A DNA stretch of 64,000 bases from Sipunculus nudus (Eukaryota; Annelida; Sipuncula; Golfingiida; Sipunculidae): assembly GCA_026874595.1 (NCBI GenBank), contig CM049319.1:13233601-13297600 (forward strand). The letters run 5' to 3'. Made by a program: the position numbers and the translations under genes. Each line of letters begins with the position of its first letter. Position 1 is the first letter of the stretch. The notes beneath the pieces are model-generated. The model searched no databases, had not been told where the DNA came from, and saw nothing but the letters and a program-made list of their open reading frames with translations. This document shows positions 53,656 through 62,608 of this stretch, piece by piece.

Positions 53656-53749
53656 GAACTATGCATAAGTTGCAGCTCGTGGGACTTTTGCTGGCGCTGA
53701 CCCTCTTTGTATCGGGGATTCTTGCCAGGTCTATACCAGATTTACCCAG
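53656..53749 (+). CDS. Exon 2: start codon and signal peptide
   Basis: The acceptor tract 'atatcttttcag' is followed by GAACT and ATG (53661), and the donor is CCCAG|GTAAGC. It encodes a short basic N-terminus, a Leu-rich hydrophobic core and ...SGILA-RS, a good signal-peptidase site after residue 22. The exon ends in phase 2. Confidence 0.75.
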
Positions 53750-56700
53750 GTAAGCTGTCACATGGACTGGTCAGTTTACATGACCGTTCGCAATCTTTGT
53801 AATAAAGGAAATGGACCTGGGGCCTGTTGCAATAACATTTTACTGGACTTAAGCCCAGTACGGGGCCTAAATACCATGATTACAATTGTGACGTCATAAT
53901 GGTTACCATGGTGACACACAGATGCCCCTGGGCTTAAGTCACCCACATGACTTAAGTCACCTTATTGCAACACACCCCAGTTCATTACAGTTGAAGGTTA
54001 GGTGGGGGTTCCTAATGAAAATGCTTGATACTGAATTTTCTTTGTAAGTTTGTTTTTTTTGTGTCCAAACATGGTTTAACATTTCCTATAAAACGTTATT
54101 ATTATAAAGTATAACGTTCATTTCAGTAAATTATTTAAAGAATTATCACTGTCTAACTTTAAACATTGGATTTGAGCAATATTCATAATATCAGTAATCA
54201 AAATACATGTATCAGTAGCAGTAGTAGCAGGGAAAGCAGAAATAGTAGTAGTAGTAGTAGTAGTAGTTTGTCCATACACATGATGAAAATGGTATTTAGT
54301 ATCTGCCCAAATCATCTAAAAAATGGGGTAGAATTGTGTTCAAATGACGATGTTCATGGAATGGCCGAAAGGGAAGAAAGAATAGACGGAAAGGAGGAAT
54401 GGCTACACAACATGAAGGGAGAAAATTACAAGGAAGGAACATTAAGATGACCACACCTGTCCAAGTATACCTGATGTTGTTTTCCCACCTTTAACTGTAA
54501 GCCCTCCCGCTCTCCTGTTCCACCCCCTCTCCCCTCTCCTCTCCCTCAACCTCCCCTGGGGCTTTGAATTATATAGTACAGTGCGATCTGCGTTCGGGTG
54601 TCTGGATTCGATTTTGGACACAGCGATTGGAGTAGGATTTACACGGTATGATTGGAGATAACACAATTGTATTCAAGATAGTATGATTCGTTACGGGATA
54701 ACATGAGTTACAATTTTTGTAATAAAAATACAGTCGAACCTCCAAATTACGGACACTGAGTGGACCGGACATTTTGCTCCCATTACAGGAGTGACCTTTG
54801 TAGAGAGGTTATAGATTTCGGGACCTACTTTCAAGAGACTGGTCGTAAGTGGCCGTAAATAGGAGGGGCCATTCGTACAGAGGTGTCCGTAAGGAGAGGT
54901 ACGTTCTACTTTACATGTAACAGTAGAGATAGTAGCAGTGATAGCAGAAGTTTAGAAGTAGATTCGGATGACATGATTTGGTGGAATTTCGATTTAAATT
55001 AAATAAAATATGGCTGTTTCATTGAATTACCGTTACTGCGGTATAAACTCTGCCGATACACGTTGCCTGCCACCAGACTCTCTCATCAGATAGAATCCTG
55101 TCTGGATGCTGTCGGAGTAATTTCGTGTCGCAGCGGACCTACCGAACCCTGACAAGTTCATATCTCAAAGTTTCACAAAAACCGGATGTTACTGGTCGGA
55201 TGTCGAAATTATGGGTACACCTCAAGTATATGAAAATCCTATCTATATATCAAATAAAGTGTAATTAGAATTAAAATTAGGTGAAAGGAATATAAGCTTT
55301 TATGACATTTGTCCACATTTGTTACAATAATTATAATATCAAAATATTATTCATATTTGTTTTTTTTCGCAAGAAACGCTTACACCCGTAATATATGGTA
55401 AAGTCAAATCAAGGATTTCCTCGGTCAGCTTAAGCCTTGGCTCTGCAAAAAACTCTCTAGTTTTGTTTTCCAAAATTCTAAATGAACATAGATAAATGGC
55501 AATAAACCTAAACAAAAAATTAAATAAAGTTTCAATTATCTCGATTACGTAAAGTGCTTTAAGAACAAAAAATCCTTCTTGCTATTACAGTTTTATTTCG
55601 CATGTGTCTTGTGTCGCGGTATCAGGTGTCACCTAATCAAGGCTTGAGACCTCTTAGTTTTCGGTATCATGTTGTGGTATGGTGTAGATTGACCTTTGAG
55701 ATTAAATATGACTCAGGTGCATTGGGTTTTTTTATAACAAGATGTCTTTACCATGTGGCAAAATTATTAATACATCCCATTTTTGAAGTTCCTCTCTTAA
55801 AGGTTGTCTTAAAGGTTGTCATATTTTATATTTGATTTATAAGCCCTTATATTTGACGTCAATGAAGGCTGACTACAAAATGTAAGTATTTTAAAAAATT
55901 ATAATATTAACTATTTATATAAATTTATAAAAAGAAGTATTATCTATCGTTTTTTAATTATTTGAAAAAAGCCAGAATTGTAAATAGAAATTCCACATAT
56001 ATTCTATTGACGTAAATTCGTTTTCTAAATTACCCTTATCTCGAGAATATAACCACTTCCGCTTAATTTGGTTCAACGTGATTGTAAAAGCAGTTAATCA
56101 AGCTTTGCGTTTCCTTGATTGTATTGATGGAAGTTCACGCACCGCGGAAAAGAGGTCACACGCTGAGTAACGGAACACGCTCTTGGCCATTACTGTTAAA
56201 GGGGAGCAAATTCAGAGAATCAAGTCTCAACTATAGTGTTCCGTATAAATCTGTTTTTCAAGGAAATGAATCATAGAGTTAAACTAGATTTAATCATACA
56301 CGTTCTCTCCTGCAGTTATTATTGCCGTTCGCAGCTGGTACCGAAAGTGATATGCGTCCATTCCGGTTCATAATTTTACCTCCCTAGAGTGTAGAAATGC
56401 AACTTTTAAATTAGGGTTAGTATTACTCCCGCCCCGTTGAGCATCGTTGCCCTGAACCTGCTGTTCCCTAAGTCCTAAATCCCATGTTTCCTTTTCAGTT
56501 TGATTAACCCATTTGTGGTTTAATAATGTATTTCAACTATACTTCGTCTGCTATGTAGAAGAGTTTAACCTTTCTCATAAAAAGAATAAGTACTATTTTT
56601 TAATTACTCGGCGCATGTCTGGATTTTTTCAAATGTGAACAAAACAACTTGTCAGCATCGTTGCCGGCATTGTTGATTTATAGAAACAGTATTGCGCCAG

Positions 56701-59700
56701 CTGGTTTAAGCAGTTTTTCAAGATTTCAGAAGATTGTTACAAACATTGCGTTGTAAGATTTATTATTGCAAATTTGCTTAGACATTTCCTATCCCCATTT
56801 AACAGATTGTCGTGAAATGAACATTTGTCTTTGACAGCATCTTTTTAATTATTTTGGTATAAATACGAAATAAAATGAGAAAGGTTTTACTCCTCCCTGT
56901 CATTGCATGTTATTTTCCACCTGTTTTGTTACCCCTTCCTTTGTTATCCTACCCATACCCCCTTCCTTGCAGACCTCGCCACAAGCGTCAGTGGGGCGAT
57001 TTCAGGATATCAGACAGAAAGGCTAAAGTTGGTCTGGCAAATAATTCACCCCGAGGCTGTGACGAAGTCGGGTGTGGCATATTTGACATTCAAATGAGGT
57101 AAGCACTGGTTACCATGGGAGCACCTGCCAAATTGCCAAGAGCAATTATGCCTTCATTTCATTTCTAAGTTGCGAATGTAAGCAACATTTTGTGTTTTAA
57201 CATTTTTAAAACTTAGAATAGGCTGCTTTCAGTCCATTTTTAATGTACTTCACAGAAAATAAAACCTGTCAAACTAAAAGATAGTTATATAATAACTGAT
57301 CATAATCGGTTTCTCTATAACTGGTCCTACATACACTTCACTTCTAGAACACAACCTCATTAGAGATATTTGATAGTTTAGGAAAATCTTGTAACTTGTA
57401 ATCCATAGTTGGCAACCGTTCATTAATCATGTTATAATGTACGCGAGCCAGCCTCAAACATAGTTTTTTCTTTTTAATTTAAGTCTAATTATTAGGACCA
57501 TTTACCTTTTCACAATTTAATCTTTAAATGCGATCATATTAAAAAAAAACAAATACACTATGTCATCACCTAGACACACAGAAGCTTATTTCAGAGGAGG
57601 TCTTGTATGTTACCTTAAATGATACATTAGACAAAGTAATTGATATGTTAATAAACGATTTCTTTGCAAATTTGTTATTTGATCCTTCAGAATAACGTAT
57701 ATTAGCTGTAAATGAACAAATCTAGAGTTAAACCTCTTATCTTTTCTTGAACAGACATGAACTGAATATGAAGGCATACTTCGGTGTGGTTGCTCTTGGC
57801 AACGCGGCCTGGATGCTTCTCCAGTGACGTGATACTTTAGACGACCGTTAATATTTCAAATGTCAATATGCACGCTCAGAAAAGTGTTCAGAAAGACGCT
57901 TTACCCATTATTTCACCATACTGTCGGATATTACCAGTCACAACAGTGAAAAGATTGAATGTTCCCTTAAGGCTAGGGAGGTGCAAGGTGGCGTGCATAT
58001 TTATATTTGCGAAATATTAGGTTGTCGATTTGCAGTATGAATTTTAGATGACGTCATCAATAACGTCGTCTGTGAACTGTGAAACAAGCGGCTGCCCTAC
58101 CTCTGATATATAAACCGACAGTTAACCGAAATATGGTGGCTGCCCAACCTCTGATATACATACCGAAAGCTAACCGAAATATAGCGGAACAAACACAGCA
58201 AATATTTATATAAATACATTTATCCTTTTTATCAATTATTTCAAAGGTTACAAAAAATATTTATGTTTTTCAATTTTTCAGAATATGCAAAACAAAAACG
58301 AGATAATCAAGCAAAAGAACTCTAAGAGAGTTAATCTTTGTTTCCATGGGTTCCTGTTTTTCATACATAAAGTTAGGTGTATAAAAATGATTGATTTGAA
58401 CTTGTGTTATATAAACGAGCCTTGGACTAATTTTGGTTGCGCAGTGATAGAGATTCCATGCACATGTTGATAGGCCGCTTGTTTCTAGGTCAACAATCTG
58501 ATGGTCATGTTATGTATGGTATTAACAGGGTTGACTTTGTAACTTCTATTACAGTGATCGGGATAAAAGAGCGGCCTCTGACCAGAGGATTGCGGAACTA
58601 CAAGCCCTGATGGCACTTTCAAAGGGCGCCAATACTGTGGTAGCCCATGGCCAAGTAAACCCTTACTACATGTGCGTAGTGATATTATAGCGATGGGCAT
58701 GCGCGTGGGTCAACCCAGACGGTAGAAAGTAGTTCGACACCTGTACCCACATCCTTACCTACGTGTACCCATGCACACCCTTACCTATTTATCGTTTCCG
58801 CAAACCTCGTAATTCTGTTACCGAGGACCTCAATTCAATGTTTATATTTCCTTTTCAGATATCCTCAAGTATGTTAAAAAAATCTTATTATTTTTATTAT
58901 TATAGTCTCCTTTCCTGATGTTCTTATTTTTATGCTTTAATAATACCAAAGCACCGGTTGCATCATGTGATCTTCCCGTCATCCTGTTCAGCTCCACCTC
59001 GTGACCTACCCGTAACCCTCCAGTACATGCACCACGTGACCAACATTTGGTTCAAATATGTGTACTATAGCCTTCTATTTTTGAAAAATGAGTCTTTCAG
59101 TTCAAGCATTTTTTTTACCGATCATAACCTGCCCATGATGTTACCTAGATGTTGAGTTGTGTCTTTTAGATAACCCAAACCACATGTACCTTTTGACCAA
59201 TGTTCTCCTATATATACCCACTGGTTGTACCCAAAATTCCTTTGTCGGCAGCAGACTTCCATCTTCACCCTGCAAATTTGTTTCCCTAACCTTGATGTTT
59301 AATTGTATGTTTATAGCAAATGCTAATATAGAATGCCAAGCTGTTTTATTTAATTCACATGATACATCAATTTAAGAACATGGAGTAATTGTGAACGGAA
59401 AGTCAGTAATAATAAAACGGTAATTTTACCAATGCAGCTACATATCTGCATAATTCGTCAAGATAACGTTTGTGAAGTGAAAGATACAAATGAATTGTGC
59501 TTCAGATAAACGTTACGTATTTCTGTGGATATTTTCCTGATGTCTTATGTAAGTACTGGGTATGGGTACATCGATTGTCTGATATGTCATTGTTCCGTAA
59601 TAATTCGAATGATCGACTGTCTTCTCAAATATTCATTCTCTACACTGTGCGGTTAATTAAAATGTTACTGTAATTACAAAATACCATCAGTATTAACTAT

Positions 59701-59964
59701 CATGAAAGAAAGTCATACAATTCATTGCAGGTGATGCATATAGCTGAATCTAACTCTCATCGCGTGCCAAGATTCTTAGGTCTCATCATACCCATTGTAC
59801 TCTGTAAAACTTTGGATGCATTATAATGGCCCTATTTTTTCACACTGTTCTTCAGTGGAAAGAGGAAACGAGCAGACGACAGTGGCGTGGACACAGAATC
59901 GACGCTCTACCGCCTCAAACTAATTGAGCGCATATTAAACGATCTGGAAGAGGAGACCTCGTAA
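53661..59964 (+). CDS. Secreted amidated-peptide precursor (neuropeptide-like), multi-exon
   Basis: Proposed coding exons are 53661-53749, 56973-57098, 57755-57823, 58555-58671 and 59856-59964 (stop TAA 59962-59964), giving 169 residues; without the third, 146. All four introns are phase 2 and GT-AG. The precursor has a signal peptide (residues 1-22, MHKLQLVGLLLALTLFVSG), RHKR (32-35), and a segment starting Gln36-Trp37 (possible pyroglutamate) with Cys59-x4-Cys64. DRDKR (96-100) follows, then a 34-residue helix-prone segment from Ala101 to Ile134, Gly135 with KRKR (amidation plus dibasic cleavage), and an acidic helical tail. This is classic prohormone architecture, processed in the secretory pathway to act extracellularly, probably on a GPCR. 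I do not recognise the family. The C-x4-C spacing recalls calcitonin-gene peptides and adrenomedullin, but nothing else supports that. Exon joins are inferred from splice signals only. Confidence 0.65.
53817..53980. mobile_element. MITE with 19-bp TIRs, in the peptide-gene intron
   Basis: CTGGGGCCTGTTGCAATAA (53817-53835) and the complement of 53962-53980, CTGGGGTGTGTTGCAATAA, differ at two positions. A second inner inverted pair GGACTTAAGCCCAG / CTGGGCTTAAGTCA makes most of the 164 bp foldable. The 'GGGGCCTGTTGCA' end is a style I associate with Harbinger/ISL2EU-type MITEs; no target-site duplication is clear. Confidence 0.75.
54212..54268. repeat. (AGT)n microsatellite
   Basis: AGC/AGT trinucleotides are interrupted by 'gggaaagcagaaa', then about nine pure AGT. 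The Ser-rich and Thr-rich open frames across it are repeat-encoded. Confidence 0.9.
54731..54911 (+). mobile_element. pogo/Tigger-like MITE flanked by TA
   Basis: The left end CAGTCGAACCTCCAAATTAC then GGACAC is mirrored imperfectly at the right end (complement AAGTAGAACGTACCTCTCCT then TACGGACACC). TA dinucleotides flank both ends (54729-54730 and 54912-54913), matching the TA target duplication of Tc1/mariner-pogo elements. It has no coding capacity and lies in the intron between exons 2 and 3. Confidence 0.7.
54914..56972 (+). other. Intron 2, remaining part
   Basis: AT-rich with no element recognised. No additional exon with both splice sites and a matching phase was convincing here, but one cannot be excluded. 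Confidence 0.4.
56973..57098 (+). CDS. Exon 3: KR site and Cys-loop peptide segment
   Basis: The acceptor is 'cccccttccttgcag' and the donor ATGAG|GTAAGC; 126 bases, phase 2 at both ends. It encodes PRHKR, then QWGDFRISDRKAKVGLANNS, then PRGCDEVGCGIFDIQM. Arg-Lys-rich stretches without a strict dibasic KR inside suggest one long peptide. Confidence 0.7.
57755..57827 (+). CDS. Exon 4: cassette or alternative terminal exon
   Basis: The acceptor is 'cttttcttgaacag'. Reading in the frame set by exon 3 gives HELNMKAYFGVVALGNAAWM, then LLQ and TGA at 825-827 of the 57 kb block (57825-57827). A donor CTCCA|GTGACG just before the stop (exon end 57823) would make a 69-base phase-2 cassette joining exon 5 in frame. 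So it may be spliced through, skipped, or end the protein. The donor is weak and no AATAAA is close behind the stop. Confidence 0.45.
58090..58185 (+). repeat. Two-copy 48-bp tandem repeat in intron 4
   Basis: 'ggctgcccTacctctgatat' at 58090 and 'ggctgcccAacctctgatat' at 58138 start units that stay about 85-90 percent alike through 'gttaaccgaaatat'. It lies between exons 4 and 5. Confidence 0.8.
58555..58671 (+). CDS. Exon 5: dibasic site and amidated-peptide core
   Basis: The acceptor is 'aacttctattacag' and the donor TACAT|GTGCGT; 117 bases, phase 2 at both ends. It encodes DRDKR, then AASDQRIAELQALMALSKGA and NTVVAHGQVNPYY. An alternative donor CAA|GTAAAC (58654) would lose the amidation frame of exon 6, so the downstream donor is preferred. 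Confidence 0.65.
58859..58868 (+). other. Candidate 10-base microexon
   Basis: ATATCCTCAA sits between a strong acceptor (tttatatttccttttcag) and a consensus donor (GTATGT). Including it would shift exon 6 out of the GKRKR frame and give a different, shorter C-terminus. It may be a cryptic pair of sites. Confidence 0.25.
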
Positions 59965-59970
59965 TAACAG
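59856..59970 (+). CDS. Exon 6: amidation/cleavage signal, acidic tail and stop
   Basis: The acceptor is 'cacactgttcttcag'. In the frame supplied by exon 5 it starts GKRKR, then ADDSGVDTESTLYRLKLIER and ILNDLEEETS, TAA at 59962-59964. AACAG|GTAGGG (59970/59971) is a possible donor directly after the stop, so a separate 3'-UTR exon is possible. Confidence 0.65.
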
Positions 59971-60412: not shown

Positions 60413-60568
60413 TCTGCGCAGTGAATTTAGAAATATAACAGCAAAAATGTAGATGTGCCGTATGACTTGGACAAGTCTGTAGAAAGATTTATATTTGACT
60501 ATACATTTATTTAAGTGTAACTAAATTTAATGCTGACTGGAATTCATTGCAACTCTGCTTTACAAAAT

Positions 60569-61322
60569 GTTATACTTTTGTGCTCGGATAAAGGTAAGGG
60601 TTAACAGAGGATGGATCGATTTATTTCTTTTTTTTTGCTCAATTATTTCGTTTGTAATATATTTTATATTATAATATGATAATATTATATTATAATAATT
60701 AATATCAATGTATATGACTCGTTTCTAATTGTATGCATTTATACTCGACAAAGATTAAAATATATTTTTAAAAACAGGCTTCAAATTAGTGTTGGAGTAG
60801 ATATGTTGCACCTCATCCCTTCTTGTTTTCGCCTTTGGTTCATTTCATGTTCATATCTGTTTCATACCATATTTAGATGTAGTATGCAACCCCCTAACAG
60901 ATGGTCATATTCAGGGTGATGCAGACACTGCATAATATCATTTTTGTTATACTTTTGTGCTCGGATAAAGGTAAGGGTTAACAGAGGATGGATCGATTTA
61001 TTTCTTTTTTTTTGCTCAATTATTTCGTTTGTAATATATTTTATATTATAATATGATAATATTATATTATAATAATTAATATCAATGTATATGACTCGTT
61101 TCTAATTGTATGCATTTATACTCGACAAAGATTAAAATATATTTTTAAAAACAGGCTTCAAATTAGTGTTGGAGTAGATATGTTGCACCTCATCCCTTCT
61201 TGTTTTCGCCTTTGGTTCATTTCATGTTCATATCTGTTTCATACCATATTTAGATGTAGTATGCAACCCCCTAACAGATGGTCATATTCAGGGTGATGCA
61301 GACACTGCATAATATCATTTTT
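60569..61322 (+). repeat. Perfect 377-bp tandem duplication
   Basis: 60569-60945 is repeated at 60946-61322. Reading both copies side by side, including a run of nine T and the TA-rich middle, I see no difference. GTT is present at the left start, the junction and just after the right end (61323-61325), giving 3-bp microhomology. It is either a very recent duplication or an assembly artefact. Confidence 0.9.
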
Positions 61323-62608
61323 GTTTGTCCCCAAATGATCATTCCAAGACAAGAAAGCAAGTGATCATTAATCATTAATCGAGAATTTCTTATACCAGCT
61401 CGAAATATTTGCTTACCACTGTTTAAAGGCCCATGGCACTCTGGTATACCACTGATGCACTTTCGTGTAACATATTTGCGCCAATACACCTTAGCAGACG
61501 ATAGAAATTTTCGTTTGTAATCTTGTAAAGATTTAAAAAAAAATCATGCTGTTATACTGCTGTCAACTGTGATTATACTCACCAAAACATGCCGCTCTAT
61601 TTTTTATATAAAACTTCGTGTTTGACCTTCCATATGTGTCTGACAGAATTAAAATGTAAACTAGTTTTCTTCTAGAAACCTTTTTCGTACGTCTACAAAT
61701 AATCATTTGTGATCGATTTACACAAAATGTTGAATCGATTATGCGGACGCAACGTGCTTAAATTATGTGTACAAACGACCAGTGGTCGATACGATGGATA
61801 AACAAATTATGTTCATCATACTTGTGACGTTGTGTAAAACTCTTTGACATGGCTTTTACAGCGTCTTTTTGAAGATTTTAATCATGTTAGAGCTCATGAA
61901 ATTACAAACGAAATTCTTTTGAAACATCCCTTTATGATTAATTATTCAAATTTCTTTAATTCCTTATGAGATCTGGACATGTAATGTTTGACATGACTCC
62001 GTATGACTCTGTTTTAGGGCTGCCAATTACCCGTCAACTAAACAAAAGTAATTGTTTCCTAATCCTGGTCCTAATTGGAGACATATTAGAGATTAAAGAG
62101 CCAAATCAAGAATAAAAATACCATCCTAAGAAGTCGTTAATGCGGTTATGTAATTTTGATTATCTATTTTCCCCCTTACATATTAATGGTCAAGAAATAG
62201 CTAACTTTGTGTTTCCATGGTAATTATTTCTTTACTATTGTACAGGTATGAAACTTAAATCCCTGTGAACATACATGCATTATGTTTCTCCGCCTGAACA
62301 GATTTATACAGTAGGTTTATGTTTCCGACCAACAAAACTAATTGTTTTTTTTTTCAATCATGCAGCTGCATAGAGTCGAACCAGTGATTAAAACAGAAAT
62401 ATAAAACGCCATCATGATAACTTAGATGAAAATAAATGGATTTCATGTGGAATATTTATTCTCCATACAATATCAACGTAAAGACACCTGCTAGCTTGCA
62501 GGTCCCAAGATAAATGCATTTAAATCTTCCTGCCATATTGACAATAAAGGACATAGACATATAGACTTTAATTCTCAACATCTTTAAATTACAAACTTTA
62601 AATTGTTA

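Follow-up and report, generated by a model that had tools for sequence, protein, structure and literature searches.

Gene structure and predicted precursor

In this work, we analyse a 64,000-nucleotide stretch of Sipunculus nudus DNA (the window, numbered from its first base), which lies on the 68-Mb contig CM049319.1 of a 1.43 Gb assembly in 153 contigs, and describe the gene found on its forward strand between positions 53656 and 59964. Judging from the sequence, this gene very probably belongs to the PXXXamide/QSGamide/iPTH family of neuropeptides. Its proposed exons are the following:

53656..53749, forward strand: exon 1, with 5 bases of untranslated region (UTR), the ATG at 53661, the predicted signal peptide and the start of the propeptide, MHKLQLVGLLLALTLFVSGILARSIPDLP.., ending at the donor CAG/gtaagc.
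56973..57098, forward strand: exon 2, KR-QWGDFRISDRKAKVGLANNSPRGCDEVGCGIFDIQM, a candidate mature-peptide exon similar to the QS type, with a C-x4-C loop; its product would be amidated only if joined directly to exon 5 (..IQMS-GKRKR).
57755..57823, forward strand: putative exon 3, HELNMKAYFGVVALGNAAWMLL, with a weak donor (CCA/gtgacg) and symmetric phase.
58555..58671, forward strand: exon 4, DKR-AASDQRIAELQALMALSKGANTVVAHGQVNPYY(I), predicted mature-peptide exon of the PXXXamide/iPTH type.
59856..59964, forward strand: exon 5, with the shared GKRKR amidation/cleavage site, the C-terminal extension ADDSGVDTESTLYRLKLIERILNDLEEETS and the stop TAA at 59962-59964.

The coding segments (53661-53749, 56973-57098, 57755-57823, 58555-58671 and 59856-59964) join into one frame of 169 amino acids and a stop, with GT-AG borders at all four introns and neither internal stops nor frameshifts, in the order MHKLQLVGLLLALTLFVSGILARSIPDLPRPRHKR-QWGDFRISDRKAKVGLANNSPRGCDEVGCGIFDIQMR-HELNMKAYFGVVALGNAAWMLLHDRDKR-AASDQRIAELQALMALSKGANTVVAHGQVNPYYI-GKRKR-ADDSGVDTESTLYRLKLIERILNDLEEETS. 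An initial annotation, made from the letters alone, had already read the locus as five splice-bounded segments in one frame, with a signal peptide, dibasic sites, a C-x4-C loop, a KR-QW start and GKRKR after a 34-residue peptide ending NPYYI, and all of these elements were found: the N-terminus MHKLQLVGLLLALTLFVSGILA is signal-peptide-like on hydropathy, the one property scored (mean up to 3.0 over 9 residues), and is followed by HKR-QW, by CDEVGC as the C-x4-C loop, by DKR and by the 34-mer AASDQRIAELQALMALSKGANTVVAHGQVNPYYI with its GKRKR site. Position 53656 is the first base after a TTTTCAG acceptor; the first coding exon therefore includes a short 5' part, and a UTR exon probably lies upstream of it. 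At the other end, a donor-like CAG/gtaggg directly follows the exon 5 stop, and the 3' UTR may be split by an intron.

All four introns are in phase 2, so that leaving out exon 2, exon 3 or exon 4 keeps the frame, and the five-exon join is one among several possible transcripts. Donors were scored with a simple matrix of general consensus frequencies and ranked among the forward-strand GT dinucleotides in 164 kb: those of exons 1 to 4 reach 11.3, 10.4, 1.64 and 5.8 bits, corresponding to the 99.97th, 99.88th, 75th and 96.5th percentile. Exons 1 and 2 have strong donors, exon 4 a fair one and exon 3 a weak one. Of the five-exon structure previously proposed, the frame and exons 1, 2, 4 and 5 hold up well, while exon 3, with its donor of 1.64 bits, is weakly supported and a single fixed transcript is not imposed by the phases.

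Segments sharing the limits of exon 2 are rare, the exon itself being the only one on the forward strand in 164 kb, with none on the reverse strand; those of exon 3 are shared by 7 forward segments, including exon 3, and 2 reverse ones. The forward strand from 53.7 to 84 kb was scanned for symmetric phase-2 exons of 75-200 bases containing a dibasic pair or [ST]D, a search whose length and donor limits leave exon 3 outside. Besides exon 4 and exon 2, the latter with two donors, it listed 5 further segments; by eye, a dibasic pair or an SD is all that these show of the family arrangement. Exon 3 is doubtful: it may be an optional cassette exon, an alternative terminal exon or no exon, and if left unspliced it reads into a TGA at once. 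Shuffle tests found no similarity between exon 3 and exons 2 and 4, which speaks against its being a third peptide exon.

The weakness of exon 3 is what could be expected of a chance assembly of open segments, or of a dead gene, but such an origin is very improbable for the locus as a whole, given two strong donors and a fair one, matching phases, a signal peptide, family marks in the correct order and exons that join without stop or frameshift. The earlier judgement that this architecture is unlikely to arise by chance is thus shared here, on the grounds of the strong donors, the phases and the ordered marks.

Family assignment, processing and receptor

The prediction of a peptide-hormone precursor with an amidated 34-mer is supported. 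It had been accompanied by the suggestion that the precursor matches no named family and may be new or poorly described; in fact, it fits the PXXXamide/QSGamide/iPTH family, because KR, Ser-Asp, a proline at -4, a G-basic-basic site and a C-terminal extension are all present. According to Xie et al. 2020, iPTH, whose former name in Sepia was PXXXamide, consists of a signal peptide, KR, the mature peptide, a GRR amidation site and a C-terminal extension, with SD near the start highly conserved, P at -4 mildly conserved and G-basic-basic strictly so (PMC7224569; literature statements here and below refer to the cited passages of each source). In the Sipunculus precursor KR directly precedes the 34-mer (DKR-AASD), Ser-Asp are its residues 3-4, proline stands at -4 (PYYI-GKRKR), and GKRKR is followed by an extension of 30 residues. 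The published alignment puts SD at positions 7-8, and the correspondence with AASD is by motif, not by alignment column (PMC7224569).

The C-terminal antigen of Tribolium iPTH is printed in the same source, its last 14 residues being TMPVGGGRIDPGRI (PMC7224569). When NTVVAHGQVNPYYI is compared with them, ungapped from the amide end, the score is 16, with V, G, P and I identical and Q/R, V/I and N/D similar. This score is reached by 28 of 100,000 shuffles (65 of 200,000 in a separate run) and by none of the 42 stop-free 14-mers bounded by G[KR][KR] in the six frames of the window.

Some observations reduce the weight of this comparison and of the receptor group proposed below. Among all stop-free 14-mers in the six frames, 13 of 54,877 score at least 16, up to 23, and 9 of the 10 listed score higher than 16; moreover, the comparison covers 14 C-terminal residues only. 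As for the receptors, the two exons compared with known structures match the secretin receptor best and the calcitonin receptor second, with the PACAP and PTH receptors lower.

The family is known from molluscs, annelids, brachiopods, phoronids, nemerteans and arthropods (PMC7224569, PMC8557429), and iPTH, PXXXamide and QSGamide were placed in one orthology group by Thiel et al. 2021 (PMC8557429). In the relevant passage of De Oliveira et al. 2019, PXXXamide is reported as not recovered in molluscs (PMC6425005); according to Thiel et al., genes of the PXXXamide type were published by the same authors as QSGamides (PMC8557429). To call the family poorly described is fair: within the literature searched, the name PXXXamide occurs in just 5 papers, and a Pfam-A search with the precursor returned no family at E up to 10, as a PDB sequence search returned no match. 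An apparent likeness to vertebrate PTH carries no weight in this assignment.

Length, helix and amidation are common to class B ligands, and the C-x4-C spacing recalls vasotocin; on these general features, the gene might encode another amidated class B ligand (DH31/calcitonin, DH44/ELH/CRF or PDF/cerebrin) or vasotocin. We consider this improbable, although less so than a chance origin, since there is no Pfam match, the two cysteines belong to exon 2 and not to the amidated 34-mer, and NPYYI-amide and AASD fit PXXXamide/iPTH rather than the Pro-amide end or the CxxxxCPxG motif of those ligands.

As a family member, the precursor would enter the secretory pathway and be cut after KR, and at G-KRKR it would be cut and amidated, yielding AASDQRIAELQALMALSKGANTVVAHGQVNPYYI-amide. 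This 34-mer is expected to be mostly helical, and its probable target would be a receptor of class B1 (secretin type) from the PTH/GCG/PACAP group, also termed 'cluster B' or iPTHR; processing, splice choice, receptor and function are all inferred. Single-sequence AlphaFold2 modelling of the 33 residues that can be read within exon 4 gives a helix over residues 2-25 (mean predicted local distance difference test, pLDDT, 77.7; predicted template modelling score, pTM, 0.36). Class B ligands are usually helical.

In the genome, 130 matches to 7tm_2 are listed, and many of these have one long open frame. Exons for transmembrane segment 3 (TM3) of class B1 receptors, from 2 of 20 fetched stretches (L046 and L050), matched class B1 receptors in the PDB, and on this sequence evidence receptors of the class exist in the genome. 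The iPTH/PXXXamide/QSGamide group has been paired with PTH/GCG/PACAP receptors, a pairing given in 2021 as unproven in lophotrochozoans (PMC8557429), and what was an unassigned hormone would in this respect become a ligand that can be tested on lophotrochozoan PTH-type receptors. Separately, a cluster of 7tm_2 matches was seen at 20.25-20.45 Mb of contig C17. At least 7 of these matches have an open frame of 791 codons, with nearly equal scores, and the cluster looks like receptor-like genes in a tandem array of recent origin.

Exons 2 and 4 and the choice of splice

Exons 2 and 4 both contain KR-x3-D-x-R-I, in the same register, and MAFFT aligns them at 35%, a figure raised by the inclusion of the flanking KR and GKR. 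With the flanks left out and exon 2 shuffled 20,000 times, the alignment to exon 4 is equally good in 124 cases globally and in 442 of 20,000 locally; anchored at the N-terminus over 7, 12 and 18 residues, shuffles as good number 1765, 122 and 17 of 100,000. No similarity was found by shuffle tests between exon 5 and exon 4. Modest statistics thus accompany the suggestion that exons 2 and 4 are related mature-peptide exons.

Joined directly to exon 5, exon 2 yields QWGDFRISDRKAKVGLANNSPRGCDEVGCGIFDIQMS-GKRKR, a predicted amidated QS-like peptide ending IQMS-amide. Exons 2 and 4 would in this way share one amidation exon, the choice of splice deciding which peptide is amidated: transcripts 1-4-5 or 1-2-4-5 would give PYYI-amide and transcript 1-2-5 IQMS-amide, while from a transcript including both exons the first peptide would be released without an amide. 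The phases and frames of exons 2, 4 and 5 are compatible and thus allow a switch of this kind. We put the chances of such a switch between two amidated peptides in one gene at slightly short of even.

Several results count against a second amidated peptide. Compared without gaps at their C-termini, exons 2 and 4 show no significant likeness (18,149 of 100,000 shuffles do as well; 23,470 of 100,000 in the reverse direction), and the similarity of exon 2 to Tribolium iPTH is weak (2,958 of 100,000). The exon 2/exon 4 similarity emerged after several comparisons, and its figures are uncorrected. Finally, the exon 2 product ends in QMS rather than QS, and so departs from the C-terminal Gln-Ser-amide that the family name implies.

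The gene might, accordingly, be a PXXXamide gene in which exon 2 is a mere propeptide spacer, exons 2 and 4 are not alternatives to each other, and a single transcript, whether it includes exon 3 or not, produces one amidated peptide. This is a variant within the family assignment, with which its probability overlaps, and we rate it a serious contender, a little less probable than the splice switch. Only exon 4 is amidated in both the five-exon and the 1-2-4-5 joins, and the lack of significant C-terminal likeness between the two exons agrees with a spacer. A spacer would hardly be expected, however, to start with KR-x3-D-x-R-I in the register of exon 4 and to be closer to exon 4 than most shuffles are; exon 2 is also phase-symmetric with a strong donor, and differential splicing has been reported for the oyster gene (PMC8398477).

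Taken as a whole, the locus holds a real neuropeptide gene of modest novelty, its family, and probably its gene architecture, being already published; a splice-switch architecture is possible, and has been outlined already for the oyster.

Genomic context and comparison with known systems

A tblastn search for tandem copies within 100 kb downstream of the gene found none credible, the best non-self match listed having an E of 0.23 and containing a stop. Queries made of exons 4+5 and of exons 2+5, at E up to 10, detected only the exons of the gene itself in the genome (2 matches each); with no more than 2 and 3 candidates scored, and with little sensitivity for diverged 35-mers, these genome searches could have missed QSamide-like paralogues. 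Just downstream of the gene, at 60568-61325, a 377-base unit occurs twice in tandem with 100% matches, and is either a very recent duplication or an assembly artefact.

Elsewhere in the window, a 169-codon open frame on the reverse strand (154-663) resembles, by eye, part of the reverse transcriptase of a retroelement; a Pfam search with E up to 0.1 gave no match for it. At the level of the assembly, a COX1 family search gave 11 matches, 9 on bacterial-looking contigs, 1 on C123 and 1 short piece on C5. The nine, on C60, C61, C62, C66, C72, C74, C75 and C89 (two on the last), are frames of 577-578 codons with nearly equal scores; C123 (112 kb), bacterial-looking by translation, carries another, different haem-copper oxidase. 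Among the best 80 of at least 582 relatives in GTDB species genomes, none exceeds 58% identity to the protein of locus L066, one of the bacterial-looking COX1 matches. The molluscan haemocyanin domain gave no match in the assembly, and none in the control genomes either, so that this negative carries no weight. These bacterial-looking COX1 contigs may represent symbionts or cobionts in the assembly.

Among known systems, Tribolium castaneum iPTH shares with the Sipunculus precursor a signal peptide, KR, a peptide amidated at G-basic-basic, a C-terminal extension, SD near the N-terminus and P at -4, and its C-terminus GRIDPGRI matches GQVNPYYI here (PMC7224569). In Sipunculus a second, related peptide exon seems to lie upstream.

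QSGamide, as described in Platynereis and other lophotrochozoans, is a proneuropeptide family of this animal group, clustered with iPTH by Thiel et al.; the QS-like product of the Sipunculus gene, likened to it by description, would end in QMS-amide (PMC3890597, PMC8557429). The connection to vertebrate PTH/PTHrP is through a related receptor group (PMC7224569, PMC8557429), the identity of iPTH to PTH, PTHrP and Tip39 being under 12% according to Xie et al. (PMC7224569).

A parallel in gene architecture is offered by the oyster. Relatives there end in PYKIamide, PALIamide and PIKIamide, and in Crassostrea gigas the single QSamide3/PXXXamide gene produces QSamide or PXXXamide via differential splicing, one transcript being named QS3-like/PYKIamide (PMC8398477). 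C. gigas has two further QSamide genes (PMC8398477), whereas the insensitive searches reported above found no second copy in Sipunculus. The PxxI-amide end is common to both, and the 1-2-4-5 join has the QS3-like/PYKIamide form (PMC8398477), a likeness drawn from the text description, not from a comparison of residues. The Sipunculus gene may supply a second gene model for the oyster-type switch; if this is true, the arrangement would represent an ancient splice switch in PTH-type signalling, conserved within this animal group.

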